Source of the DNA: a virus
IMG/VR virus record: IMGVR_UViG_3300025400_000073
Location: 1 to 26,052 of that record
Strand: one strand, 5' to 3'
Length of the DNA stretch: 26,052 nucleotides
The stretch's first letter is position 1; each line of letters starts with the position of its first letter. Below are positions 538 to 24,196 of the stretch, one piece after another. The translations under genes and the position numbers were made by a program. The notes below the pieces were generated by a model, which saw only the letters and a program-made list of their open reading frames with translations, ran no database searches and was not told the origin of the DNA.

Positions 538-545
538 TATTTATC
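538..545 (-). promoter_or_regulatory. Late promoter box GATAAATA for the left partial gene
   Basis: The minus strand reads GATAAATA, matching the NATAAATA late box of T4-like phages. It overlaps the stop codon of the upstream cytidylyltransferase-cupin gene and ends 7 nt before the ATG at 530. By T4 geometry transcription would start about 2 nt before that ATG, giving an almost leaderless RNA. It would add late expression to a gene at the end of an early operon. Confidence 0.6.
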
Positions 546-1275
546 TACGCTCTATATCTTCTTCAGAGCACTCAGGTCCGTACTGTATTTCTATCATTTT
601 AAGCGGGCTAGGGAATGGGTTAGCTAGTTGATGCCATTCTGTACGTGCTACAAAGTAGCTACCATGTACTCCTAATGTGGTTATACCAGTATCGTTTTTA
701 ATCTGCGCCATGCCCTCAGTTACTTTCCAATACTCGCTACGCATACGATGCCGTTGCATACTTAACTGTTTGCCCGGCTCGACTACTAGTTCCTTAACTT
801 TTGTTCCTGGAATGTCATATAACACTCGGTAATAGCCCCAGGGGCGGTAGGTTTTAGGCGCTTTCCAGTCCTCAAGGATCCAGCTACTACTATTGGCCTT
901 ATCTTCGCCGCCAACGCCAAACACAAACTCCACACCCTCTACTGACATTTCAGGAATGTTTACGGCTGTACGATCTCCGCCGTTGGCAAATACAAACTCT
1001 GCGTAAGGGAATTGCTTTTTAGCCCATTCTAGTAGTTGACAGGCACTTCCGTCGCGGTCGTCAAACCCGTATACTGTATCAACTGATTTGATATTCATTA
1101 GGATCGTTTCACGTTCTAAGAAAGGCATAAATGCACGACCTTTTTTACGTTCTAGCCAAGCATCTGAGTTAAGGCCAACCATTAAAGAATCGCCTAGCTT
1201 ACGAGCCGCATTGAGATAGGCAATATGCCCGGAGTGTATAGGATCAAAGCCGCCTGTGGCGATTACAATTTTCAT
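541..1275 (-). CDS. Bifunctional nucleotidyltransferase-cupin (cytidylyltransferase + type II phosphomannose isomerase-like domain)
   Basis: Residues 1-135 form a cytidylyltransferase-like nucleotidyltransferase of the TagD/RfaE2 class. The nucleotide-binding motif GGFDPIHSGH (8-17) contains HxGH, and NSSSWI (about 128-133) takes the place of the usual C-terminal ISSTxI motif. Residues 137-244 form a cupin like the C-terminal isomerase domain of ManC/type II PMI proteins (KTYRPWGYY, then MQRHRMRSEYW, then WHQLANP and EIQYG). Visible metal-ligand candidates are H176, E181 and H215; the second His of the usual HxH is Met178. Known family chemistry is activation of a sugar or polyol phosphate with CTP and sugar-phosphate isomerisation. 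Which substrate is used here is unknown. The ATG overlaps the methyltransferase stop (TAATG), so translation is probably coupled. Confidence 0.82.
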   Translation of the reverse strand: MKIVIATGGFDPIHSGHIAYLNAARKLGDSLMVGLNSDAWLERKKGRAFMPFLERETILMNIKSVDTVYGFDDRDGSACQLLEWAKKQFPYAEFVFANGGDRTAVNIPEMSVEGVEFVFGVGGEDKANSSSWILEDWKAPKTYRPWGYYRVLYDIPGTKVKELVVEPGKQLSMQRHRMRSEYWKVTEGMAQIKNDTGITTLGVHGSYFVARTEWHQLANPFPSPLKMIEIQYGPECSEEDIERR

Positions 1276-2030
1276 TAGTCTGTTATTTGATAAATGTTTT
1301 TATCTAACCAATTTACTATGGTATCTTCTAGTCTAGCATATCCGTATTTGTTTACGCTGTTTATTATACTATCGTTAACTAAACCTTTATCAGCTAAGTC
1401 ATACCAAGTAGCATCGCTAGTCATCGGTTGATATGGACTTGCGTATGTTGCTGCATATAACCAAGGTGTGTTTGGTTTACGATAAAAATACGCATCCTTG
1501 CAATCAAACCCGCTAACGGCTAGCATGTACATTAAATTTAATATATTGTAACTATAAAATTGATTGTTATAGTTTGATACTGTTAATCTATTATATGTTA
1601 GATAAGTTGTTTGCGGAACAGATAATACCAACATACCATTTTCATTAAGGGACTGTTTCCAAATAGCCAATGTAGATAACGGATTTCTTACGTATTGCAA
1701 ACTATCATGGCACCAAATTAAATCTGCCTTGCGTGGAAGTGCAACATTTTCAAAGTCTTGAGCAAGCGGAACTAGGTTCGGACTTTTAGTTAAAAAATCT
1801 GGCTCAATTTGTTTAATATCTTTGTCAACTGCATAAACTGTATAGTTGCGTGGTTCCGGTGGCTCGTCTCTTGTTTCTAAAGTAGCCCACCAACTGGCAT
1901 CAAATCCAGCACCACAGCCCATATCTGCAATAACAGATAGATTGTCTAAAAAACTATCATAACAATATAATAGGTTTAATACTTCTAGACTGTGTTCGTG
2001 ACTATCGTATGCGTTTCTAAACGGGGCCAT
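1275..2030 (-). CDS. Class I SAM-dependent methyltransferase
   Basis: A 251-aa Rossmann-fold methyltransferase. Motif I is IADMGCGAGFD (about 34-44), the acidic strand-2 end is VYAVDKD (65-71), motif IV is DLIWCHDSLQYV, and the strand after it carries LNENGMLVLSVP. The C-terminal 90 residues are rich in Tyr/Asn and probably form the acceptor-recognition part. The substrate cannot be read from sequence; the layout resembles small-molecule or sugar methyltransferases more than DNA methyltransferases, since there is no DPPY/NPPY motif. It overlaps the upstream small gene by 14 nt, and its stop overlaps the start of the cytidylyltransferase-cupin gene, so the two enzymes are probably made together and may act on the same glycan or metabolite (inference). 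Confidence 0.8.
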   Translation of the reverse strand: MAPFRNAYDSHEHSLEVLNLLYCYDSFLDNLSVIADMGCGAGFDASWWATLETRDEPPEPRNYTVYAVDKDIKQIEPDFLTKSPNLVPLAQDFENVALPRKADLIWCHDSLQYVRNPLSTLAIWKQSLNENGMLVLSVPQTTYLTYNRLTVSNYNNQFYSYNILNLMYMLAVSGFDCKDAYFYRKPNTPWLYAATYASPYQPMTSDATWYDLADKGLVNDSIINSVNKYGYARLEDTIVNWLDKNIYQITD

Positions 2031-2271
2031 TAGTTAATATTTCCATTACTAGTTTTTCTTTTAATCGTTGTAATTTAGGTTCAAGTTGATGACATGCTTC
2101 AGCAATCTCAGTGTCGGTGCCCCAGCCACGTTGTGTAGATAAATGGTATGCCAACTTAGCTACTGAGTCTTTTTCTAATTGTATATCTATAGCATCGTGC
2201 TTGGGCTTTGCCTGACAACAAAGATCAAACTCATCCAATAATTCCGTGGCTCGTTGCTTCCAATCTATCAT
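2017..2271 (-). CDS. Small helical protein, unknown function
   Basis: An 84-aa protein starting MIDWKQRATELLDEFD and ending LVMEILTNGPV. I chose the ATG at 2269-2271 because it forms an ATGA overlap with the stop of the upstream UvsY-like gene. A longer frame back to 2367 would lie entirely inside that gene and is unlikely. The protein looks all-helical and charged, with two adjacent cysteines in DLCCQ and a QRGWGTDTEIA segment. No family recognised. It lies in the recombination operon between a UvsY-like protein and a methyltransferase, overlapping both. Confidence 0.65.
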   Translation of the reverse strand: MIDWKQRATELLDEFDLCCQAKPKHDAIDIQLEKDSVAKLAYHLSTQRGWGTDTEIAEACHQLEPKLQRLKEKLVMEILTNGPV

Positions 2272-2723
2272 GAAACAGTAATATCTTCCATTCCTGCTGT
2301 ACGCAATCGAACAACGTGTCCTAGCATAAAGTTCTTTGACTCTATTCCCTTCATAACACCCAACCATTTGTTACGTAGTAATGCTACTTCGTTAATGATA
2401 GTTTCCATATCAATGACTTCATCTTCGGCCTCAGCATACTTTTCAGCATCGCGGCTTGTTAAAGCTCTTGCGTAGGCTTCCAAATATTTTTTATAGTGCT
2501 TTTGGCGTATCTTACGTAACTGTATATTTAAGTGTTCCAATACTGCTTCGATTTCTTGTAGTTGATTAAAACGGTGTTCTGTTTCGCCGGGTAAGTTGCT
2601 TAGTTCTCGTTCAACTTTACCCTGTATTTTAATGTCGGCTTTAGCCGCAGATAATTCCCGCTCATAATAATCTATAAAAGCGGGAATTTCTCCTAGATTG
2701 CTAACAACCTTATTATACCACAT
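2268..2723 (-). CDS. UvsY-like recombination mediator (tentative)
   Basis: A 151-aa, highly charged helical protein. The central coiled coil (about residues 20-85) is followed by KYLEAYARAL, EVIDMETIINEV and a C-terminal helix, KGIESKNFMLGHVVRLR. The layout of a basic Tyr-rich helix, an acidic turn, a long helix and a final I-x-x-(R/K)-(G/N)-F segment resembles T4 UvsY (137 aa). UvsY loads UvsX onto gp32-covered ssDNA. Position supports this: it is the second gene after uvsX in the same overlapping operon. Sequence similarity judged by eye is weak, so it could instead be an unrelated conserved coiled-coil protein of T4-like phages. It starts at TAATG overlapping the upstream stop. Confidence 0.5.
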   Translation of the reverse strand: MWYNKVVSNLGEIPAFIDYYERELSAAKADIKIQGKVERELSNLPGETEHRFNQLQEIEAVLEHLNIQLRKIRQKHYKKYLEAYARALTSRDAEKYAEAEDEVIDMETIINEVALLRNKWLGVMKGIESKNFMLGHVVRLRTAGMEDITVS

Positions 2724-2953
2724 TACCAGTCGCCGTCTTCGTCTTCTTCATCAACCTCGTCGTCTGCAGAGTACTCTTTAAGAGCTTTCTTTAACGTACC
2801 ATCGGTGCCGCCAAACTCTTTAAGTTCTTGGTCGCCTAACATATCAACCATGACACTCATTAAGTTATCTGCACACTCCTGACGATCCTTTGCAGGAACG
2901 TACTGTTTCATAATAGTATATAGTTCACTGAGAACTTCTACGTCAATTGTCAT
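2723..2953 (-). CDS. Small acidic protein next to uvsX, unknown function
   Basis: A 76-aa protein with an N-terminal helical half (VEVLSELYTIMKQYVPAKDRQ) and a very acidic C-terminal tail ending DEEDEDGDW. The acidic tail with a terminal aromatic residue recalls tails that contact ssDNA-binding or recombination proteins, but no domain is recognised. Its ATG overlaps the uvsX stop (ATGA, 2950-2953), and its own stop overlaps the next start (TAATG). Strict coupling to uvsX suggests a recombination accessory role (inference). Confidence 0.7.
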   Translation of the reverse strand: MTIDVEVLSELYTIMKQYVPAKDRQECADNLMSVMVDMLGDQELKEFGGTDGTLKKALKEYSADDEVDEEDEDGDW

Positions 2954-4083
2954 TCTGTAACTTCCTCTTTCTTAGATTTCTTAGACTTTGTTTCTACTTC
3001 TTCAATAATCTCACCAGTTTCTTCATCAATTGTTACAGGAGCAACTGCTTCTTTGTGATGTGGATTGTCAATAAAGTCTTTCATTACTTTGTCTAAGCAA
3101 TTATCTTCATTACGTTCCCATGCCTTACGGAACTTCTTAATAATTTCGCCGCCTGTAACTGTATAAACTAAACTGTTACCTTCCTTCTTAAGCATGTCTT
3201 TACCTTCAAACAAGTCAACTAGTCCAGAGTAGGGATTCATACCTTCTTCGTACGGAATCTTAACCTGTACTGATTCAAAAGGTTTAGCATAACGAGTTTT
3301 CATAATCTTACAAGCGGCACGGATGCCTTTTACTTCTGAGATCTTGTTGCCATCTTCGTCTTCTTTTAGTTTTAACTTACGCATTGCCACAACGATAGAG
3401 GAAGCGTAGATAAAACCCTGTCCACCGCTGATTTTGTCATCGGGATCAAACATATCCTGTGATGCGTATGTGTGTGCTGTACACACTAGTCCTAGATTCA
3501 AACTACCAAACATATTAACACAGTTACGAACTAGTGCAGCAAGTGCTTTGGGCTTACGACCCATATCGCCTTTCATATCGCCTGCTTCGAATTGGTTAAC
3601 GTCTGTTGGGGTTAGCAACATACCCAATGAGTCAACTACAAACAAGACTTTTGGACGCTCTAACTCGGGTAGTGTTTTGTATTCCTTGACAAACTCGCTG
3701 ATCATCTTACCTACATCGTCGATCATAGCCATATTTAGTTTCAGAAGTTTGTCTTCTGATGTGTCTACATTGAGTGCGTGTAACCACTTTTCATCAAGTG
3801 CGTTTTCGCTATCAACTAGGATAACATAAATGCCTTCCTTCTGTGCATTAGCAACTAAGTTACCCGAACAGATAAACGATTTACCTGCGCCAGATTCTCC
3901 AGCAAACACAGTAACTTTACCTAGTGGCACACCTTTATTAAAGTCGCCACTGATTAGATAGTTAAGAGCATAGTTGTTTGTACTGATCCAGTCTGTAGGA
4001 TCTGTAAAGCCAACGGAGATACCGTCGATACTTTTTGTAATGCTCTTACGAAATTTTGATACGTCAAATGGTTTAGTTGCCAT
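2950..4083 (-). CDS. uvsX: UvsX, RecA-like strand-exchange recombinase
   Basis: A 377-aa protein, close to T4 UvsX (391 aa). It polymerises on ssDNA and catalyses ATP-driven strand exchange for recombination-dependent replication and repair. The Walker A motif is GESGAGKS (62-69); Walker B is VLFVVDSLG with Asp151. The L1/L2 region carries EAGDMKGDMGRKPKALAALVR and SGGQGFIYASS, typical of UvsX. The C-terminal 30 residues are acidic then Lys-rich (KSKKSKKEE), a likely partner- or DNA-binding tail. A good Shine-Dalgarno, AAGGAAAA, precedes the ATG and lies inside the 3' end of the upstream radical SAM gene, which overlaps by 11 nt. Confidence 0.95.
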   Translation of the reverse strand: MATKPFDVSKFRKSITKSIDGISVGFTDPTDWISTNNYALNYLISGDFNKGVPLGKVTVFAGESGAGKSFICSGNLVANAQKEGIYVILVDSENALDEKWLHALNVDTSEDKLLKLNMAMIDDVGKMISEFVKEYKTLPELERPKVLFVVDSLGMLLTPTDVNQFEAGDMKGDMGRKPKALAALVRNCVNMFGSLNLGLVCTAHTYASQDMFDPDDKISGGQGFIYASSIVVAMRKLKLKEDEDGNKISEVKGIRAACKIMKTRYAKPFESVQVKIPYEEGMNPYSGLVDLFEGKDMLKKEGNSLVYTVTGGEIIKKFRKAWERNEDNCLDKVMKDFIDNPHHKEAVAPVTIDEETGEIIEEVETKSKKSKKEEVTE

Positions 4084-5227
4084 GATAGTTTTCCTTGATG
4101 TTATATAAATCTTTAAAAATTTTACTGCTATCTAAATTGCGTCGCTGATCCAGTATATATAGCTGTTCCAACGAACCTGCAAAATCTTTTACAATTGGTT
4201 GATCTAAGTAGTTTAACATATTCTTATAGCTATCTTCAAGTAGATATCCAGGTTGTTTACTAATTCGTTCTACCAATGTTTCCTTAACTGATTGTAACAC
4301 AGAATCTGGTAAATGTCTAATGTTTAGGTGTTCTGGAGTAAGCAATGGACCAATGATAAATGAGTTATTATGGAATCCTAATCCCGTTAGATAATCCACA
4401 CACCCAAATATTGTTTGATAGTTTAATATAAAGTGTAGCATATTAAAACTGATCTTATGGTCTCGCTGTTTAATAGCAGTTAGGTTATCCAAAAAGTCTG
4501 TCCATTTACCGCCATATCTAATGTACTCAAATTCTTCTTCAATAGTTTCTACACTGACAATCCAATGTACATTTTTAAATTCGCAGATGCGATCAAATAC
4601 TCGAGTATCTACTTTACTCAGGTTTGTATTAATACGTAGATTAACATCTGGATCTAATAAGTCTAATAATTCTAAATTCTCTTTCATCAGCAATGGCTCG
4701 CCACCTGCTAGATAAACGTGCTTTAATTGTTTTGCATGTCGAAATATGTACTCTTTAAAGTCGGCACGTTGTTTGTCAGTTGGAACTTGTTGTTGAGTAT
4801 TTAATTCGTCTGCCCACTTACTGCTAAAGCGTGGACCACAATATGTACAAGCAAAGTTACATAGGTTAGTCCAGCGTACATCAATTGTATGTAGATCAAA
4901 GTTGTTAACTCGATATGTATCTAATGGTATTTGTTTAAGTTCTCTAATATAAAATTTACGATCACTAACAATATCAAAACTTGTTTTACCTACTTCCAAA
5001 TTATGACAAGGCTGACAGTTACTAGGCTTTTGTTTATCAATGATCATTGCTTGCCTAGCAACATTAATATTATTAGACAGTATATCTTCTATTTTGTCAT
5101 TACAAATATTTCCCAATCTACTGGCACTACGAATACAGTTCTTAACATCACCGTCAAAGTTGTACATAAGCCCAGTCCAGGGCATAGGACAAAATGCAGG
5201 ATTAGTTAATACGTCTTTAGGTGTCAT
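4073..5227 (-). CDS. Radical SAM protein with N-terminal Cys-rich (twitch-type) auxiliary region
   Basis: A 384-aa radical SAM enzyme. The CxxxCxxC motif that holds the [4Fe-4S] cluster is CNFACTYC (C123, C127, C130), and the SAM-binding GGEP is at 175-178. An N-terminal region has further cysteines (C13, C31, C42, C71, C74), consistent with an auxiliary Fe-S cluster of the twitch/SPASM kind. Family chemistry is 5'-deoxyadenosyl radical modification of a peptide, sugar or nucleoside; the substrate is unknown. It starts at an ATGA overlap with the SDR gene and overlaps uvsX at its end. It is one of two radical SAM genes flanking the SDR gene. Confidence 0.87.
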   Translation of the reverse strand: MTPKDVLTNPAFCPMPWTGLMYNFDGDVKNCIRSASRLGNICNDKIEDILSNNINVARQAMIIDKQKPSNCQPCHNLEVGKTSFDIVSDRKFYIRELKQIPLDTYRVNNFDLHTIDVRWTNLCNFACTYCGPRFSSKWADELNTQQQVPTDKQRADFKEYIFRHAKQLKHVYLAGGEPLLMKENLELLDLLDPDVNLRINTNLSKVDTRVFDRICEFKNVHWIVSVETIEEEFEYIRYGGKWTDFLDNLTAIKQRDHKISFNMLHFILNYQTIFGCVDYLTGLGFHNNSFIIGPLLTPEHLNIRHLPDSVLQSVKETLVERISKQPGYLLEDSYKNMLNYLDQPIVKDFAGSLEQLYILDQRRNLDSSKIFKDLYNIKENYHGN

Positions 5228-5775
5228 TGTTTGCGAAATGGTACAAGTGATATTTCAGGAATCCATAAATCTGGACCAGCCGAATCTAATATTTTAACTA
5301 GAGTTTCTGCCCATACAGCAGGATCTGCCATACCAGGTCTTGGCTCATCGTGAAACTGTGTATTAACTGCGCCTGGGCGCACTAGAATAATTCTAGGACC
5401 TTTTTTACTGTGACGCAGTTGCATACACGCTTCTTCTAGTGCTACTTTTTGTACACGATATTCGTCCATGTCAAATCCCGGAATTGGATTAACTGGCATT
5501 CTAGTCATGTGTGTACTAACTACAATAATTTGTTTCTTAGGTTCTGCGATCCATCGTTGAAATACATCAAACAATAAATCTGTTTGTGCGTATCCTGCCT
5601 GAGCATTGTTAATAAAAATATCAGCTGGTTCTATTTCTGTGGCTATCTTAGGAACACTTTTAATATTGTGTCCATTACTACGACTAAGCCCAATAATTTC
5701 GTGTCCCTGCTCTGCGTAAATTCTAGCAAGCTCTTTACCAATGCCCTGTGAGTGTCCTGTAATTGCTATTTTCAT
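5224..5775 (-). CDS. Short-chain dehydrogenase/reductase (SDR)
   Basis: A 183-aa protein, shorter than the usual ~250 aa SDR but with the core complete. The cofactor loop is TGHSQGIG (6-13), NNA is at 56-58, the likely catalytic Ser is in VVSTHM (S87), and the YxxxK pair is Tyr106/Lys110 in EYRVQKVALE. After the active site comes RPGAVNTQFHDEPRPG, the usual P-G motif. Expected reaction is NAD(P)-dependent oxidation or reduction of a hydroxyl/keto group, for example on a sugar. It has ATGA-type 4-nt overlaps with radical SAM genes on both sides, so the three products are probably made in fixed ratio and may act in sequence (inference). Confidence 0.85.
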   Translation of the reverse strand: MKIAITGHSQGIGKELARIYAEQGHEIIGLSRSNGHNIKSVPKIATEIEPADIFINNAQAGYAQTDLLFDVFQRWIAEPKKQIIVVSTHMTRMPVNPIPGFDMDEYRVQKVALEEACMQLRHSKKGPRIILVRPGAVNTQFHDEPRPGMADPAVWAETLVKILDSAGPDLWIPEISLVPFRKQ

Positions 5776-6707
5776 ATATCTCTCAATAATTCTTGATCTA
5801 ACATAAACCCGTTTAATTCAAGTTGGTTGTTTCTGTCTACTGCAACTTTGCCGGGAATAACATCAGCATAAGGTAATGTCATATTGTTCTTGTACTTAAC
5901 ATTTAATTCGTCTGGCGTATTTAAAAGTGCCCAAGAATGTAGTAAATTGTGTTCTGCTACAAATGATTTAATGTTATCAAAGTCGCTAATGTTTAATGCG
6001 CTGACTGTGGTCCACGTATTTAATTCTGTCAGTGGCATAGACTTGTAGGTCATTAGGTTTGTATAAAACTTATCCCACTTAATGGGCCAACGCACACGAT
6101 CGTGTACTTCCCCAATGCCATCTAAGCTAACTGTAACTGTAACTTCAATACCACGTGCTAGTACTTCTGCCAATTCGTCAATGATTAAACTACAATTAGT
6201 ATTAACTCTGATGCTACGAACATTCTTGGGCAAGTTTGCTAATATTCGTCGATAGTTTTTACTAGCACTAGGTTCACCACCGTTTAAATCTAAATGTACA
6301 ATACGATCTTGCGGTAATGACCAAAAGCCCTGTGTATTATCCACAATAGGATATGTCTTACTAGTTAAGCTACCAATCTTTGTGCTTAGTCCCTCGTGGC
6401 AAGTTAAGCAAGCACTATTACATACATTGTCTAATACTCCACCTACAATTAAATAGTCTGGATTAGTTTGTTTCTTATCGAACTCTATTGCGTTTAGTCT
6501 AATGCTTGTTCCGTTTACTTCTTCTGTTTGCTGACAACGGATACACTCTGCCGGCCAGTCCATGTATCCACGTAAGACTCTATTCCATTTACTAGAATCC
6601 ATGTCCTCTAGTGTACTAAACTTGGGTGCATTAACCATGTGGCCACAACGGCTAACTGTGCCATTGTGATTAAAGCGTACAAAGTGATCTAGTCTAGGAC
6701 AGCGCAT
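5772..6707 (-). CDS. Radical SAM protein (second copy type)
   Basis: A 311-aa radical SAM enzyme with C96, C100 and C103 in CNSACLTC, and LDLNGGEPSAS with GGEP at 143-146. Extra cysteines at C3, C21, C55 and C58 (SRCGH, CIRC) suggest an N-terminal auxiliary cluster, as in the other radical SAM gene of this operon, but the two proteins are quite diverged. Later barrel strands show IRVNTNCS and VTVSLDGIGEVHDRVR, typical of SPASM/twitch enzymes. The substrate is unknown. It overlaps the sulfotransferase gene by 19 nt and the SDR gene by 4 nt. Confidence 0.85.
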   Translation of the reverse strand: MRCPRLDHFVRFNHNGTVSRCGHMVNAPKFSTLEDMDSSKWNRVLRGYMDWPAECIRCQQTEEVNGTSIRLNAIEFDKKQTNPDYLIVGGVLDNVCNSACLTCHEGLSTKIGSLTSKTYPIVDNTQGFWSLPQDRIVHLDLNGGEPSASKNYRRILANLPKNVRSIRVNTNCSLIIDELAEVLARGIEVTVTVSLDGIGEVHDRVRWPIKWDKFYTNLMTYKSMPLTELNTWTTVSALNISDFDNIKSFVAEHNLLHSWALLNTPDELNVKYKNNMTLPYADVIPGKVAVDRNNQLELNGFMLDQELLRDI

Positions 6708-7303
6708 AATTCCTTGCTTCGTAATATTGTTTCTTCGTATAGTAATGGGTACTTCATTTTAATATGAGCAAGTACCATATTCATTTTAACTGCTTGCCCA
6801 AGAAAGTCTTCGCATAGGATTTTATCTAACTGTAAATAGAACCAAAGTTTTTGATTGTTATCAAAGTAATCGACTAGTGCTTGGTCTCGTGTAAGAGTGT
6901 TCCAAGTTTCGCCTAGATCGTTGTCTAGTTCTTTTACAGATTTAAAAGTCATCCATACGTCGGGATTAAACCTAACTAAGTTTACTATCCAATGGAACTG
7001 TAGAGCAAAGTGTCGATCTAAGAACAGGTATTGATCAATCATTGTCAGTGCTGTAGCACGATCAAGATGTGGATTGTAGCGTAAGTATGTTTGTACTCCG
7101 CTTACGTAACGTTCAAACGGATCACGGAGAAATATCTCAACGTGCCCCATTTTAGCAATTCTGTCGGTATTGAGTGTGCTGATAGCTTTTTCAACTAGGC
7201 CACTGCTACCATTTTTATATATAGGATAGACGTAACGATTTGGGGTGAGTTCAATCACCTGGATCTCGTCCGGGAATAATACGGGGTCTAAGTAACCGAG
7301 CAT
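6689..7303 (-). CDS. Sulfotransferase-like protein (PAPS-dependent fold)
   Basis: A 204-aa protein with both PAPS-binding signatures of the sulfotransferase family. The 5'-phosphosulfate loop is IYKNGSSG (about 28-35), and the 3'-phosphate motif is FLRDPFERYVSG (58-69). The rest is helical, as in the Sulfotransfer_2-like group. Expected reaction is transfer of sulfate from PAPS to a hydroxyl, usually on a glycan. Phage proteins of this type have no proven substrate that I can name. It is the first gene after gp32, starts 10 nt downstream of a UUCG-type hairpin, and has no visible Shine-Dalgarno. An active enzyme would need host PAPS. Confidence 0.75.
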   Translation of the reverse strand: MLGYLDPVLFPDEIQVIELTPNRYVYPIYKNGSSGLVEKAISTLNTDRIAKMGHVEIFLRDPFERYVSGVQTYLRYNPHLDRATALTMIDQYLFLDRHFALQFHWIVNLVRFNPDVWMTFKSVKELDNDLGETWNTLTRDQALVDYFDNNQKLWFYLQLDKILCEDFLGQAVKMNMVLAHIKMKYPLLYEETILRSKELCAVLD

Positions 7304-7312
7304 AAAGAAAGA

Positions 7313-7332
7313 GTGGGGACCGAAGCCCCCAC
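7313..7332 (-). terminator. UUCG-loop hairpin between gp32 and the modification operon
   Basis: On the minus strand GTGGGGGC-TTCG-GTCCCCAC forms an 8-bp GC-rich stem (one G-U pair) with a cUUCGg tetraloop. It begins 17 nt after the gp32 stop and is followed by TCTTTCTTT, a poor U-tract. It could be a partial terminator or an RNA-stabilising 3' end that makes gp32 mRNA more abundant than the downstream operon. Confidence 0.7.
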
Positions 7333-7349: not shown

Positions 7350-8333
7350 TTATTGTTTCTGACGATTACGAATCATTGCCAAAATATCTTCGGCTTTCTG
7401 ACTCGATGGTGTTGCCGCTGGAGCTGCTACAGGAGCAGTTGGAGCTGGTACATCATCTTCATCTTCGGCTACAGGAGCTGGAGCACTTGCCACTGGGGCT
7501 GGTGCATCAGCAGAATCTGCTTTAGGAGCCGCATTAGGAGCATCTACGCCAAATGGCTTGTAGTAAGCACCCCAACGTTCTACGTCGTATGGTTGACCAT
7601 CAACAGAAGCTTCAAACATTTCTTTAATTACTTTGAGTTCTGTTTCGTTTGGTTGCTTTGGCAAGAAGTCTGATAAGTTAAACAAACCATGCTCATCAAT
7701 TGCGGCTTGTTCTTCTGCTGTTAATGCTGACTCTTTGCGTGACCACTTACTTGTTGAGTAGTCTGCGTAGCCACCTTTACTTGTTTTAACGATTTGAAAA
7801 TCCAAACCACGTTGCAAGTCGGTTGGCAACTCTTCCATCTCTGGATCCATTAAGGCCGCTTTAATGATATTAAAGATTTGTGGACTAATAGTGAATCGAC
7901 GAATTGGATTAGCTGGTGCCTTATCATCACTTAGTGCGTTCTCACGAACAAAACCTTGGAATACATAAGACTTCTTCTTCCAATACTTACGACCCATTTC
8001 CTCTAGGGAAGGATCTTTAAACCAAGGGCGTACCTCAGCTAAGATTGGGCAAGCGGCGCCATACATTTCTACGCATGGAACTTGTACTACGATTGGCTTG
8101 CTATCAGATTGTCCTTTGACGCCGGCGAATGGTAAACGAATCATTGCTCGTTCAGCCCAAAAGAAGCTGTTTTTTGTGTTACCGTCTGGGAGGAATCTAA
8201 TGCGTGTTGTGGAACCTTCTGCGATGTTCCAATGTGGATAGATAGCGTTGTCGCCACCTTGTTGTGATTTGCCGCCGCCGCGGTTTTCAGATGCTTGTAA
8301 CTTTGCGCGAATTTCTGCTAATGTTGTTGCCAT
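7350..8333 (-). CDS. gp32: gp32-like single-stranded DNA-binding protein
   Basis: A 327-aa protein (T4 gp32 is 301 aa). It coats ssDNA in replication, recombination and repair, and works with UvsX/UvsY encoded downstream. The OB-fold core shows PHWNIAEGSTTRIRFLPDGN, LPFAGVKG, QVPCVEMYGAACPI and KKKSYVFQGFV. Only two cysteines remain where T4 has a His/Cys3 zinc site, so the zinc ribbon seems incomplete. The N-terminus MATTLAEIRAKLQ is the likely cooperativity segment. A Pro/Ala-rich linker with an acidic patch (AEDEDDV) leads to a conserved-looking tip, EDILAMIRNRQ, probably the partner-binding tail. Shine-Dalgarno AAAGGAAAA lies before the ATG; a sigma70-type promoter lies about 70 nt upstream. 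Confidence 0.93.
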   Translation of the reverse strand: MATTLAEIRAKLQASENRGGGKSQQGGDNAIYPHWNIAEGSTTRIRFLPDGNTKNSFFWAERAMIRLPFAGVKGQSDSKPIVVQVPCVEMYGAACPILAEVRPWFKDPSLEEMGRKYWKKKSYVFQGFVRENALSDDKAPANPIRRFTISPQIFNIIKAALMDPEMEELPTDLQRGLDFQIVKTSKGGYADYSTSKWSRKESALTAEEQAAIDEHGLFNLSDFLPKQPNETELKVIKEMFEASVDGQPYDVERWGAYYKPFGVDAPNAAPKADSADAPAPVASAPAPVAEDEDDVPAPTAPVAAPAATPSSQKAEDILAMIRNRQKQ

Positions 8334-11469: not shown

Positions 11470-11484
11470 ATAAGTATATTTAAT
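11469..11484. promoter_or_regulatory. Divergent late-box pair between gp17 and the HNH gene
   Basis: With gp17 starting at 11469 and the HNH gene at 11483, only 13 nt separate the genes. On the plus strand TATAAGTA (11469-11476) ends 6 nt before the HNH ATG; on the minus strand ATTAAATA (11477-11484) ends 7 nt before the gp17 ATG. Each is one mismatch from NATAAATA. Both would give leaderless or near-leaderless transcripts. Confidence 0.45.
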
Positions 11485-12013
11485 GTCGGACACACTTCTA
11501 CTAAATTCTAATTACGAGCCAATTAGCGTATTACCCCTAAGTGTTATTAATTGGCAACATGCAATCAAACTAATGTATCTAGGCAGGGTTCACGTTCTAG
11601 AAACTTACCCAAATTGGATCATACATAGCGAACGTTTAGCATTAAACGTTCCTAGCATCTGCGTGACTAAGGACTACTTCCACTATAAAAAGAACGTTAA
11701 GTTTAGCCGTTATAACTTATATATGCGCGACTTGTTTGAATGTCAGTACTGCGAAGATGTATTTGACTACGAAGAACTAACAATTGATCACGTCGTGCCA
11801 CGTAGTGCTGGCGGCAAGACTAACTGGGAAAATTGTGTTACCAGCTGTAAGAGTTGTAACCATGCTAAGGGTAGCAAACTAATTAAACCCAAAATGAAAC
11901 CATACAAGCCAGACTACTATAGCTTAGTAGGCAAATGGAAGCAGATGCCATTTAATGTTAAACAAGATTCGTGGTATCAATACTTAGGCAGGGATAAGCT
12001 CGAAGCGGCTTAG
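11483..12013 (+). CDS. HNH endonuclease
   Basis: A 176-aa protein on the strand opposite its neighbours. The N-terminal half (LLNSNYEPISVLPLSVINW, IKLMYLGRV) is the typical leader region of the bacterial/phage HNH group with this opening. The C-terminal HNH domain has zinc-type pairs C87/C90 and C122/C125, the catalytic D102-H103 in LTIDHVVPRSAGG, N114/N117 in TNWENCVTSC, and H127. It should be a metal-dependent nicking or cutting nuclease. Location next to gp17 is compatible with a role in DNA maturation or packaging, as for HNH-terminase pairs in other phages; a free-standing homing endonuclease is the main alternative. Its stop overlaps the convergent 131-aa gene by 4 nt. Confidence 0.88.
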   Translation: MSDTLLLNSNYEPISVLPLSVINWQHAIKLMYLGRVHVLETYPNWIIHSERLALNVPSICVTKDYFHYKKNVKFSRYNLYMRDLFECQYCEDVFDYEELTIDHVVPRSAGGKTNWENCVTSCKSCNHAKGSKLIKPKMKPYKPDYYSLVGKWKQMPFNVKQDSWYQYLGRDKLEAA

Positions 12014-12829: not shown

Positions 12830-12902
12830 TGGAGCAGTCGGGCAGGCTTCGAACCTTCTTCTCAGTTTGGGACTGTGTTTTACCGGGTTAAACTACGACT
12901 GC
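12830..12902 (-). tRNA. tRNA-like gene with shortened anticodon arm (possible degenerate tRNA)
   Basis: A 73-nt element. A perfect 7-bp acceptor stem (GCAGTCG/CGACTGC) is followed by T and an encoded CCA. T8-A9 are canonical. The D-arm is perfect (GTTT/AAAC) with AA..GG..A loop landmarks. The T-arm has GG-TTCGAAG-CC with 4 of 5 pairs and one extra C before the acceptor stem. Between D- and T-arms only 13 nt, CAGT-CCCAA-ACTG, are available instead of the usual 17-nt anticodon arm, and there is no U33. Read as a 7-nt loop, TCCCAAA would place CCA (Trp) at 34-36, but with C at 33. Either a decayed tRNA or an unusual tRNA-like RNA. The 5' end overlaps the SGNH gene. Confidence 0.5.
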
Positions 12903-14191
12903 GTTGTTTCAAATAAGCCAGGTAAGTTGTTTATCTTTTTATAAAAATAATTAGCTATTGCTTGATGCGTTAGTGGCCCAATTGAAGTGTAAATACCAAA
13001 CTCTACTCTATCCAATGGCACACGAGTATCATCCTTGTTAATAGTTAAATCATAAAAAGGTATGCCAAATTTGGCACAAACACTTTCTAACAGTATTCTA
13101 TTTTTGTGGAAATTATAATTGTTACTTTGCCAGTCAATGTGATCCCACCAATCAGCATAAGGTAAATCATAATTCCTGTGCGTGTGTATGTTGCTTTTGT
13201 ATTTTTTACTAACAAACTCTCTTAGACTGGTGTGTGGCCAATGTACGCATACCGCACTAATGGATGTAGGTAATGTAGTAATAGTTTTTACTCCTACCCT
13301 AGTAATTGTGTCGGCACTAATCCCTTTAATTCCCATATTTAATAATACATTGCTGGGCATACGTTCTTGTAATAATTCCGACCATGTGTTGTTATAGTCT
13401 AAGCCAAACCCAAACAAGTCGCTATCGCCTAAGCATAGTATAATGTCTTTGTCTTTAAGAGTGTCTACTGTGTAGTCAAAGTTAGCTCTATATCCAAGAT
13501 TATTGTATTTGTATTCTTTGCCGTCTGATGCATTAACTGTAATATCCTGTAGTGGCTTAAACATTGTATTTTTTGTTCTAGCAGGTATTTCCCAAGCTGT
13601 AGGCAACTCTGTATTAAAAAATAAATTTTTAAACTTGTCTTTGCCAAGATAATACTCAATGTTATCCTCTGCGGACATATTGGGTTTATTTTGTTCTCTT
13701 GTTACGTAGGTTAATTCTTTTCTATACACAACCTGATCAGCCAAAAAGTCTACTACGTCATTGATTGAATCTTCTACAATTACTTTTAGTTTAACTGTTG
13801 CTGTTTGTTCTAATCGTAGTGGCAAGTTAAACCAATTTTTTGTATTAGTAAAATTTGTTGCTGGAATTGATTGAGCATCGTGTCTTAATCTATAATAGAT
13901 ATTTGTATTGTCATTGGCAGTCGGTGGGTATAATAACACAATATCATCGGAGTGTTGTAATGCAGTTGATATAGTAAACGTAACAGTATTATCCGTTATA
14001 ACACCATCATCTACTTCTAGTGTTATAGAATCCGTGGCTTGATTTTCTGCCCAGGTTTGTGAAGCCAAACTAAAACTTTTGGTTATAGATAAATTATAAT
14101 CGGGCAAGCTGACGGTAACCGTGCCTGCGATTGTTTTATTTGTACCAAAATCAGAGATTGCAGAAAAAGGAAAGGTATATAAAATACTCAT
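12893..14191 (-). CDS. SGNH/GDSL-type hydrolase domain protein, catalytic triad apparently incomplete
   Basis: 432 aa. Residues 1-160 are beta-rich and Thr/Ser/Asn-rich, like a virion adhesion or scaffold domain. Residues about 225-425 are SGNH-like: NNLGYRANFD, then block I LCLGDSDLFGFG (Ser257), block II LLNMGIKG (Gly287/290), and a late strand AVCVHWPHTSLREF where block III should be. The block V region reads YTSIGPLTHQAIANYF, so the usual DxxHPGP lacks Asp and His. If active, it would remove acyl groups from glycans; if not, it may only bind them. A perfect late box is 6 nt upstream and there is no Shine-Dalgarno. Its TAG stop is nucleotides 8-10 of the tRNA-like element. Confidence 0.75.
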   Translation of the reverse strand: MSILYTFPFSAISDFGTNKTIAGTVTVSLPDYNLSITKSFSLASQTWAENQATDSITLEVDDGVITDNTVTFTISTALQHSDDIVLLYPPTANDNTNIYYRLRHDAQSIPATNFTNTKNWFNLPLRLEQTATVKLKVIVEDSINDVVDFLADQVVYRKELTYVTREQNKPNMSAEDNIEYYLGKDKFKNLFFNTELPTAWEIPARTKNTMFKPLQDITVNASDGKEYKYNNLGYRANFDYTVDTLKDKDIILCLGDSDLFGFGLDYNNTWSELLQERMPSNVLLNMGIKGISADTITRVGVKTITTLPTSISAVCVHWPHTSLREFVSKKYKSNIHTHRNYDLPYADWWDHIDWQSNNYNFHKNRILLESVCAKFGIPFYDLTINKDDTRVPLDRVEFGIYTSIGPLTHQAIANYFYKKINNLPGLFETTQS

Positions 14192-23845: not shown

Positions 23846-24196
23846 ATGTTGAAGCGTGACCTATGTCCTATCTGTCAAATAAACCTAGTTGCTGTAAACT
23901 ATATCAGCGAAGGTATTAGACATTACCGCAATAGTTGTAGTGCTTGTATTCGCAAGGGCAAAAAGCTCAAGGCGATCCCGCCAGCTTGGGCCAAGAGTGG
24001 CTATAGGAAGAAGGATCGTTGTGAGATGTGCAACTTTAAAGCTAAGACTTTAAAGCAACTGTTTGTGTATCACGTTGATGGTAACTTAAAAAATGTAAAT
24101 CCGTTCAACTTGAAAACTATATGTGCTAACTGTCAAATTGACATATTAGGATCCAGGGTGCCGTGGAGACCTGCTCCTATAGTACCAGATTTTTAA
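23846..24196 (+). CDS. Small four-CxxC zinc protein, HNH-like C-terminus
   Basis: 116 aa on the plus strand. Four CxxC pairs (C7/C10, C31/C34, C59/C62, C93/C96) suggest two zinc sites. The segment VYHVDGNLKNVNPFNLKTICANC (H76, D78, N80, N88) follows the layout of an HNH motif (H-x-D-G-N...N-L...C-x-x-C), so a small nuclease or a nuclease-derived DNA-binding protein is likely. I recall similar short proteins in T4-like cyanophages, without a known function. There is no Shine-Dalgarno at the start. GCTAAATA, one mismatch from the late box, lies 4 nt before the ATG. Its 3' end overlaps the convergent dNMP kinase gene by 20 nt. Confidence 0.78.
   Translation: MLKRDLCPICQINLVAVNYISEGIRHYRNSCSACIRKGKKLKAIPPAWAKSGYRKKDRCEMCNFKAKTLKQLFVYHVDGNLKNVNPFNLKTICANCQIDILGSRVPWRPAPIVPDF

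Follow-up and report, generated by a model that had tools for sequence, protein, structure and literature searches.

The window analyzed here, a 26,052-nt stretch of viral DNA (IMG/VR record IMGVR_UViG_3300025400_000073), carries on its minus strand ten genes that run from 7303 down to 541 in the transcription order STase, rB, SDR, rA, uvsX, acidic, UvsY, 84-aa, MT, and NTcup (Table 1). The first four of these, STase-rSAM(B)-SDR-rSAM(A), form a cassette flanked by the gp32-like ssb gene and by uvsX. An earlier note on this DNA described the ten genes as an unbroken overlapping run, and the open reading frames confirm this: overlaps are found at 9 of the 9 junctions within the block, versus 2 of the 14 other junctions listed in the window. 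They measure 19 nt (STase/rB), 4 nt (rB/SDR), 4 nt (SDR/rA), and 11 nt (rA/uvsX) in the cassette and, farther downstream, 4 nt (uvsX/acidic), 1 nt (acidic/UvsY), 4 nt (UvsY/84-aa), 14 nt (84-aa/MT), and 1 nt (MT/NTcup). The 84-aa gene most likely starts at 2271 rather than at the mechanically assigned position 2367. Among non-redundant relatives, the genes overlap in 109 of 121 STase/rB pairs, 102 of 109 SDR/rA pairs, 62 of 119 rB/SDR pairs (with inserts of >200 nt in 46), and 43 of 92 rA/uvsX pairs (with an insert in 22), all these counts being biased toward overlap, as the in-frame start nearest to the upstream stop was taken. Judged from these relatives, the overlaps exceed chance. An Rfam search of the window returned no match.

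Table 1. Genes and other features of the cassette region (window coordinates)
Feature	Position	Strand	Basis
STase, 204-aa sulfotransferase-like protein (predicted)	6689..7303	-	Motifs, PF03567 in relatives, fold of model
rB, radical SAM enzyme	5772..6707	-	NF033640 115.7 bits (below cut-off), invariant Cys
SDR, predicted short-chain dehydrogenase/reductase	5224..5775	-	PF00106, invariant TGxxxGIG and YxxxK
rA, N-terminal-twitch radical SAM enzyme	4073..5227	-	NF033640 234 vs 170 bits, fold
UvsX/RecA-like recombinase; backbone gene bounding the cassette slot on the right	2950..4083	-	PF00154
Small acidic protein, conserved backbone gene	2723..2953	-	Relatives' loci
UvsY-like mediator	2268..2723	-	phrog_231, E 6.8e-15
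84-aa backbone protein, no assigned function	2017..2271	-	Relatives' loci
SAM methyltransferase (MT), separate block, also in cassette-free relatives	1275..2030	-	PF13489
HldE-like nucleotidyltransferase and mannose-6-P-isomerase-type cupin fusion (NTcup), separate block	541..1275	-	PF01467, PF01050
Hairpin marking the left edge of the slot, in the ssb-STase gap; 8-bp stem, TTCG loop, T-rich tail	7313..7332	-	MFE -18.1 kcal/mol, 60-nt stretch
gp32-like ssDNA-binding protein gene (ssb), left border of the slot	7350..8333	-	Vibrio phage 2.275 annotation and position

STase carries the motifs KNGSS (at K30) and RDPFERYxSG (R60-G69), which we take to be PAPS-binding, and an invariant H98, the invariants being drawn from 39 sequences. 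The window protein had no Pfam, PHROG, or NCBIfam match at the limits used and scored below the PF03567 gathering threshold; 9 of the 39 family members match PF03567 weakly (E≤0.1; best E 0.0015). In the structural comparison of its model (pLDDT 88), matches 1 to 29 are all sulfotransferases, followed by a match with a Z score of 3.1, and the top 14 are heparan-sulfate enzymes. The best match is modest (Z 6.9, rmsd 4.5, 144 aligned residues), the Foldseek match is weak (E 0.13), and a PDB sequence search with STase found nothing. The prediction of a sulfotransferase-like protein is based on the fold and on the weak PF03567 matches in relatives. Its nearest solved folds are those of the heparan-sulfate sulfotransferases 3-OST, NDST, and 2-OST, from which it differs in having just 204 aa and 10 to 18% identity across 142 to 153 residues, with Z below 7. 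Phage-borne sulfotransferases are already known from the galactose-3-O-sulfotransferase family phrog_3347; the cassette STase has no match to that family, a member of which is encoded by a second, separate gene in one carrier phage (L318). As STase has no visible Shine-Dalgarno sequence and starts 9 nt after the terminator-like hairpin, its expression could be lower. APS_kinase matches of 25 to 40 bits were detected in 5 of 12 records; the one inspected (L277:18928-19767) is a fusion of P-loop-kinase-like and nucleotidyltransferase-like parts whose score falls well short of the APS-kinase cut-offs. None of the 12 records yielded an APS kinase proper, with one of the five weak matches inspected, and these matches do not count as support for a dedicated phage PAPS supply.

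Both rA and rB belong to the radical SAM superfamily by their CxxxCxxC motifs (C123/C127/C130 in rA, invariant in 35 sequences; C96/C100/C103 in rB, invariant in 38), with fold support from the rA model. Four auxiliary cysteines are likewise invariant in each set (C13, C31, C71, and C74 in rA; C3, C21, C55, and C58, all N-terminal, in rB). With 234.3 bits against the curated cut-off of 170, rA is a member of the N-terminal-twitch radical SAM proteins (NF033640, N_Twi_rSAM; phrog_14086), whereas rB falls below that cut-off and is a shorter relative rather than a member; the respective PF04055 scores are 58.7 and 28.6 bits, the latter just under the cut-off of 29.5. The NF033640 entry states no function; the cassette retains both rA and rB, together with SDR and STase. 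SDR scores 32.9 bits against PF00106 (cut-off, 26.6) over residues 3 to 45 and carries, in 30 sequences, invariant T6, G7, G11, I12, and G13 (TGxxxGIG) and Y106 and K110 (YxxxK), so that by motifs and Pfam score it qualifies as a predicted short-chain dehydrogenase/reductase. An optional fifth gene, 2OG-oxygenase-like and absent from the window, is located between rB and SDR in 39 of 109 full intervals (29 of 78, or about a third of cassettes, once near-copies are removed) and in none of 57 empty ones. H80, D82, H129, and R141 of its product are invariant in 27 sequences, 4 of which weakly match the Asp/Asn hydroxylase family PF05118 (E≤0.1; best 0.0082); a PDB sequence search with it found no match.

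Among the neighboring proteins, UvsX, MT, and NTcup exceed the cut-offs for PF00154, PF13489, and PF01467 and PF01050, respectively; the UvsY-like protein scores under that of PF11056 (17 vs 22.8) and is named via phrog_231. NTcup reaches 68 bits against TIGR02199 (HldE-type heptose-1-P adenylyltransferase), below the cut-off of 181.5. Strong hairpins follow the ssb stop codon in most relatives, whether the cassette is present or absent.

The cassette is a discrete auxiliary unit, probably biosynthetic, in an exchangeable slot between the ssb hairpin and uvsX. Across 173 loci spanning ssb to uvsX, all four genes were found in 109, none in 57, and some in 7; with near-copies removed, 78 of 139 loci are full, 55 empty, and 6 partial. 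Whether anchored on rA, rB, STase, or SDR, the scans converge on this one cassette, the exceptions to the linkage being the seven partial intervals and an SDR gene that stands alone in L322/L323. The borders are sharp: in five pairs of relatives, homology stops no more than 7 nt from the ssb stop codon, and it resumes just past the rA stop codon in one pair (L016/L253) and 0 to 29 nt before uvsX in the other four (L005/L112, L006/L083, L064/L225, and L078/L223). The recombination genes are the same in cassette-free relatives whose flanking DNA is 77 to 88% identical, and the slot also hosts unrelated inserts. In 12 contigs, 8 of them distinct, the two halves, [STase-rB] and [SDR-rA], have traded places within the same slot. 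In the L318 phage, SDR-STase-rB lie ∼26 kb from uvsX, with a DnaB-like helicase gene ∼4 kb away; a search of this contig, run without a positive control, did not detect rA, and a scan for further relocated copies with the L318 rB matched its own contig alone. Because presence is close to all-or-none, the halves are swapped, and a relocated copy exists, the enzymes are linked to one another and simply lodged by uvsX.

Purifying selection acts on all four genes, whose motifs are intact (median dN/dS of 0.08 to 0.11, vs 0.06 to 0.09 for ssb, uvsX, and uvsY). Pairwise distances in 60 loci correlate with those of ssb at 0.71 for STase, 0.39 for rB, 0.35 for SDR, and 0.31 for rA, and at 0.28 to 0.52 among the cassette genes themselves. 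Since these values reveal no single shared history, they do not support strict co-inheritance and indicate that the genes are exchanged singly.

These data bear out the suggestion of the earlier note that the enzymes look like a pathway, as far as the four-gene core is concerned; the opposite pattern that it considered, enzymes scattered independently with the recombination genes alone being fixed, was not found for this core. Its grouping of the enzymes holds for STase, rB, SDR, and rA but not for MT and NTcup, one or both of which are present in 13 of the 18 uvsX-anchored loci that lack the cassette and extend 5 kb or more downstream. Because both occur without the cassette, they are not part of the unit, and a six-enzyme pathway that includes them was rejected. 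The special coupling to uvsX proposed in the note is not supported by the uvsX-anchored loci, the fair sample for cassette presence: among the 65 of 80 that span the interval, 7 are full, 57 are cassette-free, and 1 has STase alone. In three isolates (Vibrio phage 2.275, Phosso, and Atu_ph07), uvsX and the preceding gene, annotated as ssb in the first and unnamed but of similar size and place in the other two, are 51, 78, and 73 nt apart. With the recombination genes kept in cassette-free relatives and isolates, and the enzymes sited elsewhere in L318, a functional tie between the two sets was rejected; the recombination genes are most likely neighbors of the cassette, not partners.

The cassette probably makes a sulfated compound rather than aiding recombination. 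Belief and doubt are about evenly balanced for the more specific proposal of a cargo pathway whose end product is a saccharide, or something similar, that has been sulfated and modified by radical chemistry. Given the overlaps and the slot, the enzymes would be co-expressed with uvsX and uvsY, so that synthesis of the product would coincide with recombination-gene expression. The radical SAM enzymes would activate a C-H position, SDR would reduce or oxidize the intermediate, and STase would transfer sulfate from host PAPS; the product could then modify the virion or the envelope of the infected cell. A saccharide, either a nucleotide sugar or a glycan, would be the most likely substrate because of the closest STase folds, the AprD4/AprD3 precedent, and the sugar genes of one relative, in which a GDP-mannose-dehydratase-like gene, transketolase-like halves, and an FkbM methyltransferase lie beyond NTcup. 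In apramycin biosynthesis, AprD4 is a radical SAM diol dehydratase that acts on a sugar-type substrate with an NADPH-dependent reductase partner, AprD3 (PMC5461906). The likeness is a mechanistic analogy that consists in the pairing of a radical SAM enzyme with a reductase and in the presence of AprD4 (6fd2) among the fold matches of rA. No close sequence relation of this pair to the cassette enzymes was shown, and we know of no sulfotransferase in it.

The fold of rA does not choose the substrate, as its structural neighbors are too mixed, comprising enzymes of peptides, sugars, and nucleotides: SkfB, SuiB, BlsE, anSME, MoaA, AprD4, viperin, QueE, and a sactipeptide thioether enzyme. SkfB, SuiB, anSME, and the thioether enzyme, together with the PF05118 matches of the optional fifth gene, would fit modification of a virion or host peptide or protein, in which the radical SAM enzymes would introduce a crosslink, an epimer, or an oxidized residue, SDR and the optional hydroxylase-like enzyme would act on it, and STase would sulfate a side chain. 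However, the overlapping cassette genes of the window leave no room between them for a precursor-peptide gene, no leader-binding domain was detected in a Pfam scan of its ten proteins, and the STase model resembles tyrosylprotein sulfotransferases (Z 3.8 and 3.4) less closely than the heparan-sulfate enzymes; we consider this explanation unlikely. Quite improbable is nucleotide or DNA hypermodification, which would account for the siting by replication and recombination genes: the slot adjoins ssb and uvsX, the L318 copy is near a helicase gene, and viperin, MoaA, and QueE resemble rA in fold, but the cassette-free relatives retain the same recombination genes.

It is also improbable that the linkage is purely positional, with a recombination-prone slot gathering selfish or unrelated cargo that travels together. 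The near all-or-none presence of the four genes and their retention after permutation, as well as that of three of them after relocation, argue against this, despite the unrelated inserts, the gene-by-gene exchange, and the solitary SDR of L322/L323. Returning to the saccharide pathway, an extended version of it is possible, if rather doubtful: a swappable cassette, expressed with the recombination genes, would yield a novel sulfated radical SAM product (e.g., a sulfated, deoxy, or epimerized sugar) that remodels the virion or envelope, as part of a wider radical-SAM chemistry of the lineage akin in kind to that of Bdellovibrio-type predators.

Phage auxiliary genes are usually treated as single enzymes. 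Here, two radical SAM enzymes, SDR, and a sulfotransferase-like protein form a multi-enzyme module that has stayed together, is exchanged along clean-cut borders, and persists in part at a second site; if it does make a new sulfated compound, it would represent a phage-encoded pathway and not a lone cargo gene, and would provide four defined genes to express heterologously and to start from in studies of radical-SAM-rich phages. The carriers are an uncultured T4-like phage lineage that, by UvsX and terminase, comes closest to jumbo phages among isolates. The cassette, found in many contigs, is nearly without parallel in the GenBank phages searched (50,697 records, with no match to STase, SDR, or rA and one weak match to rB).

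Radical SAM gene cassettes also differentiate a hypervariable region of Pelagimyophages (PMC7029224), and for the Aeromonas giant phage 332-Vera, the finding of eight such genes in the midst of structural ones is termed highly unusual (PMC12390700). The relevant passages, which for 332-Vera are those on radical SAM, do not mention the present cassette, and neither "sulfotransferase" nor "uvsX" occurs in the main text of PMC7029224. The cassette was not recognized in the literature on radical SAM with sulfotransferase, uvsX, jumbo phages, and related terms, within a coverage largely outside subscription journals and preprints. A genome scan with rA yielded 11 loci, namely, 8 Bdellovibrio-type loci (in 6 genomes) and 1 each in a bacterium, an archaeon, and a Nitrospinae genome. 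Most of these are in radical-SAM-dense clusters, where no STase match turned up, which makes the homologs uninformative on function. Within the phage lineage itself, one record has as many as 16 radical SAM matches of the twitch type.

The window, an IMG/VR-class virus record of 26,052 bases, carries T4-type genes for UvsX, a UvsY-like protein, an ssb-like protein, and terminase, and the nearest of the top-listed isolates, judged by UvsX and terminase, have genomes of 285 to 490 kb. Ten genes on the minus strand overlap at all 9 of their junctions (by 19, 4, 4, 11, 4, 1, 4, 14, and 1 nt), as do the genes at 2 of the 14 junctions listed for the rest of the window. ORFs and overlaps bear out the coordinates and gene calls that the earlier note gave for this run, apart from the start of the small gene after UvsY, which most likely has to be moved (see the table).

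Coordinates of features in the window and in related records
Feature	Record	Position	Strand
Run of ten overlapping genes	window	7303 to 541	-
Most likely start of small gene after UvsY	window	2271	-
Hairpin, 9 nt upstream of STase start	window	7313-7332	
HNH-endonuclease-like ORF, strand opposite to neighbors (by eye only)	window	11483-12013	+
ORF with SGNH-hydrolase-like stretch (by eye only)	window	12893-14191	-
HNH-endonuclease-like ORF, strand opposite to neighbors (by eye only)	window	23846-24196	+
Extra twitch radical SAM gene between acidic gene and uvsY (example)	L095	6741-7988	
Genes past NTcup	L278	1-3078	
Distant twitch-type radical SAM relative in Vibrio phage KVP40	AY283928.2	136385-137176	

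Four genes, encoding a sulfotransferase-like protein (STase), two radical SAM proteins (rB and rA), and a short-chain dehydrogenase/reductase (SDR), usually in the order STase-rB-SDR-rA, form a unit in the slot between the gp32-like ssb gene and uvsX. Among loci L001 to L273, fetched with uvsX, rA, rB, and STase queries, 173 contain both ssb and uvsX: 109 carry all four genes, 57 none, and 7 some. Some loci are near-copies or repeats of one contig, and their removal leaves 139 (78 full, 55 empty, 6 partial). The rA, rB, and STase queries are biased towards loci with the cassette, so the fair count comes from the loci anchored on uvsX; there, 65 of the 80 loci span ssb to uvsX, with none of the genes in 57, all four in 7, and STase only in 1 (55, 7, and 1 without duplicates). 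An SDR-anchored scan (42 loci, several on contigs already met; 33 newly numbered loci mapped) returned the same cassette. STase searches gave one strong match per record in 15 of 15 cassette records, with a second copy of 69 bits in one of them (G011), and no match in three cassette-free records. Mapped on a tree of 137 uvsX sequences (cassette present in 79, absent in 55, partial in 3), cassette state needs at least 17 changes, against shuffled means of 43 to 44; with single labels, the starred branches force 5 or 6 changes.

The borders of the cassette are clean and the slot is exchangeable. In five aligned pairs of cassette-plus and cassette-minus relatives, with 77 to 88% identity in the flanking DNA, homology is always lost no more than 7 nt from the ssb stop; it returns directly past the rA stop in L016/L253 and, in the remaining four pairs, 0 to 29 nt upstream of the uvsX start. 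The slot is nearly empty in L005 (51 nt), holds other genes in L006, L064, and L078, and contains an SDR or an unrelated radical SAM gene in some relatives. The gap between uvsX and the preceding gene, annotated as ssb only in the first of these three isolates, is 51 nt in Vibrio phage 2.275, 73 nt in Atu_ph07, and 78 nt in Phosso. A strong hairpin lies 3' of the ssb stop. Its predicted energy is below -9 kcal/mol in 67 of the 78 loci that carry the cassette, 33 of the 36 that hold other inserts, and 18 of the 19 in which the gap is short, a level reached by 43%, 34%, and 34% of the respective mononucleotide shuffles. Alternative inserts in L034, L048, L050, and L069 are uncharacterized proteins, accompanied by an SDR in three of the four; two of these families show, by eye, glycine-rich N-terminal motifs resembling nucleotide-binding loops. 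In many loci, an extra twitch radical SAM gene separates the acidic gene from uvsY; such inserts (46 ORFs) form one cluster and mark a second exchange point within the operon.

The cassette also occurs in alternative arrangements. Its halves are swapped (SDR-rA-STase-rB) in the same slot of 12 contigs, 8 of them distinct (L270, L312, L319, L320, and L328 to L335; of these, L335 stops short of ssb, L331 stops short of uvsX, and in L328 both ssb and the end of SDR are missing). In L318, a 35-kb contig on which rA was searched for and not found, the genes for SDR, STase, and rB lie side by side with overlapping ends, about 26 kb from uvsX. In their vicinity are a methyltransferase gene, a Galactose-3-O-sulfotransferase-family gene, two further radical SAM genes, and, at a distance of about 4 kb, a gene for a DnaB-like helicase. 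L322 and L323 have SDR by itself. A fifth gene (about 157 to 181 aa) lies between rB and SDR in 39 of 109 full cassettes versus 0 of 57 empty intervals; it is called 2OG-oxygenase-like because its HxD...H...R residues are invariant (n = 27) and PF05118 matches it weakly in 4 of 27 sequences.

All four genes are conserved, with median pairwise dN/dS values (pairs of 80 to 97% protein identity) of 0.114 for STase, 0.081 for rB, 0.082 for SDR, and 0.093 for rA, close to those of ssb (0.094), uvsX (0.075), and uvsY (0.063). Across 60 loci, distances correlate with those of ssb at 0.71 for STase, 0.39 for rB, 0.35 for SDR, and 0.31 for rA, and at 0.28 to 0.52 among the cassette genes, which speaks against one shared history; the genes are swapped singly inside a fixed arrangement. 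That arrangement could be maintained either by function or by homologous recombination in the flanks.

Family alignments show invariant C96/C100/C103 plus C3, C21, C55, and C58 in rB (n = 38), C123/C127/C130 plus C13, C31, C71, and C74 in rA (n = 35), TGxxxGIG and Y106/K110 in SDR (n = 30), and K30, R60, R65, G69, and H98 in STase (n = 39), of which K30 and R60 are presumably PAPS-binding. With a cut-off of 170 bits for the twitch radical SAM family NF033640, rA passes (234) and rB does not (115.7). The window STase itself had no family match in Pfam, PHROG, and NCBIfam searches; PF03567 weakly matched 9 of 39 family members. In VIA alignments of its predicted structure (pLDDT 88), rows 1 to 29 are all sulfotransferases, led by heparan-sulfate 3-OST-5 (Z 6.9, rmsd 4.5, 144 aligned), and the first unrelated row has Z 3.1. 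Because Foldseek alone found nothing significant (E 0.13) and Z below 8 can reflect a common arrangement, we call the protein sulfotransferase-like. The rA model matches SkfB, SuiB, BlsE, anSME, MoaA, AprD4, and viperin, a range of predicted fold matches that does not decide its substrate.

The analysis shows that the four genes form a conserved unit with defined borders and alternative arrangements; its substrate, product, timing, and role we infer. The cassette is best read as a cargo pathway: the radical SAM enzymes would activate a substrate, most likely a saccharide, SDR would perform a redox step, a hydroxylation would be optional, and sulfation with host PAPS would complete the product. 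Passages of PMC5461906 offer AprD4/AprD3 as a precedent for a radical SAM-plus-reductase step. Radical-SAM-rich phages are already on record in passages of PMC12390700 and PMC7029224, which lessens the surprise here; those passages do not describe the cassette module.

Searches of 50,697 GenBank phage records (tblastn, E 1e-3) gave a single weak match for rB, covering 43% of its length at 27.6% identity; STase, rA, SDR, and the fifth gene had none. Cultured Vibrio phages hold more distant twitch-type relatives, with 4 records matched by an array-type radical SAM query and 36 by a bacterial one, KVP40 included; KVP40 and its relatives are an accessible test system for such enzymes. Eight cassette records above 130 kb, of which G001 and G007 look like near-copies, have 10 to 16 NF033640 matches (E ≤ 0.001) in six cases and 9 and 6 in two; cassette-free records have 13 in one and 1 each in two, and 14 of 14 control genomes have matches, none above the cut-off. 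Five or six twitch-type genes stand in tandem in L274, L275, L276, and L277, which belong to records G002, G004, G006, and G001 (13, 15, 10, and 16 matches in total, respectively). Judged by eye, tail-fiber-like and SGNH-like genes lie near these arrays; L277 has a Pfam-confirmed carbamoyltransferase gene (PF02543/PF16861) there as well. Bacterial relatives of rA, mostly at 23 to 29% identity, come chiefly from Bdellovibrio-type genomes, and within that phylum, 16 of 59 genomes have matches above the NF033640 cut-off. Bdellovibrio-type loci L280 to L288 carry dense clusters of the same family as the phage arrays (17 to 27 radical SAM matches in each of four genomes, three of them Bdellovibrio-type) and share with them an uncharacterized glycosyltransferase-like family (about 37% identity, about 250 to 266 aa). 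Past NTcup, an HldE-like nucleotidyltransferase-cupin fusion encoded downstream of the cassette, L278 has GDP-mannose-dehydratase-like, transketolase-like (as halves), and FkbM methyltransferase genes, neighbors that hint at a place for the NTcup block in nucleotide-sugar metabolism.
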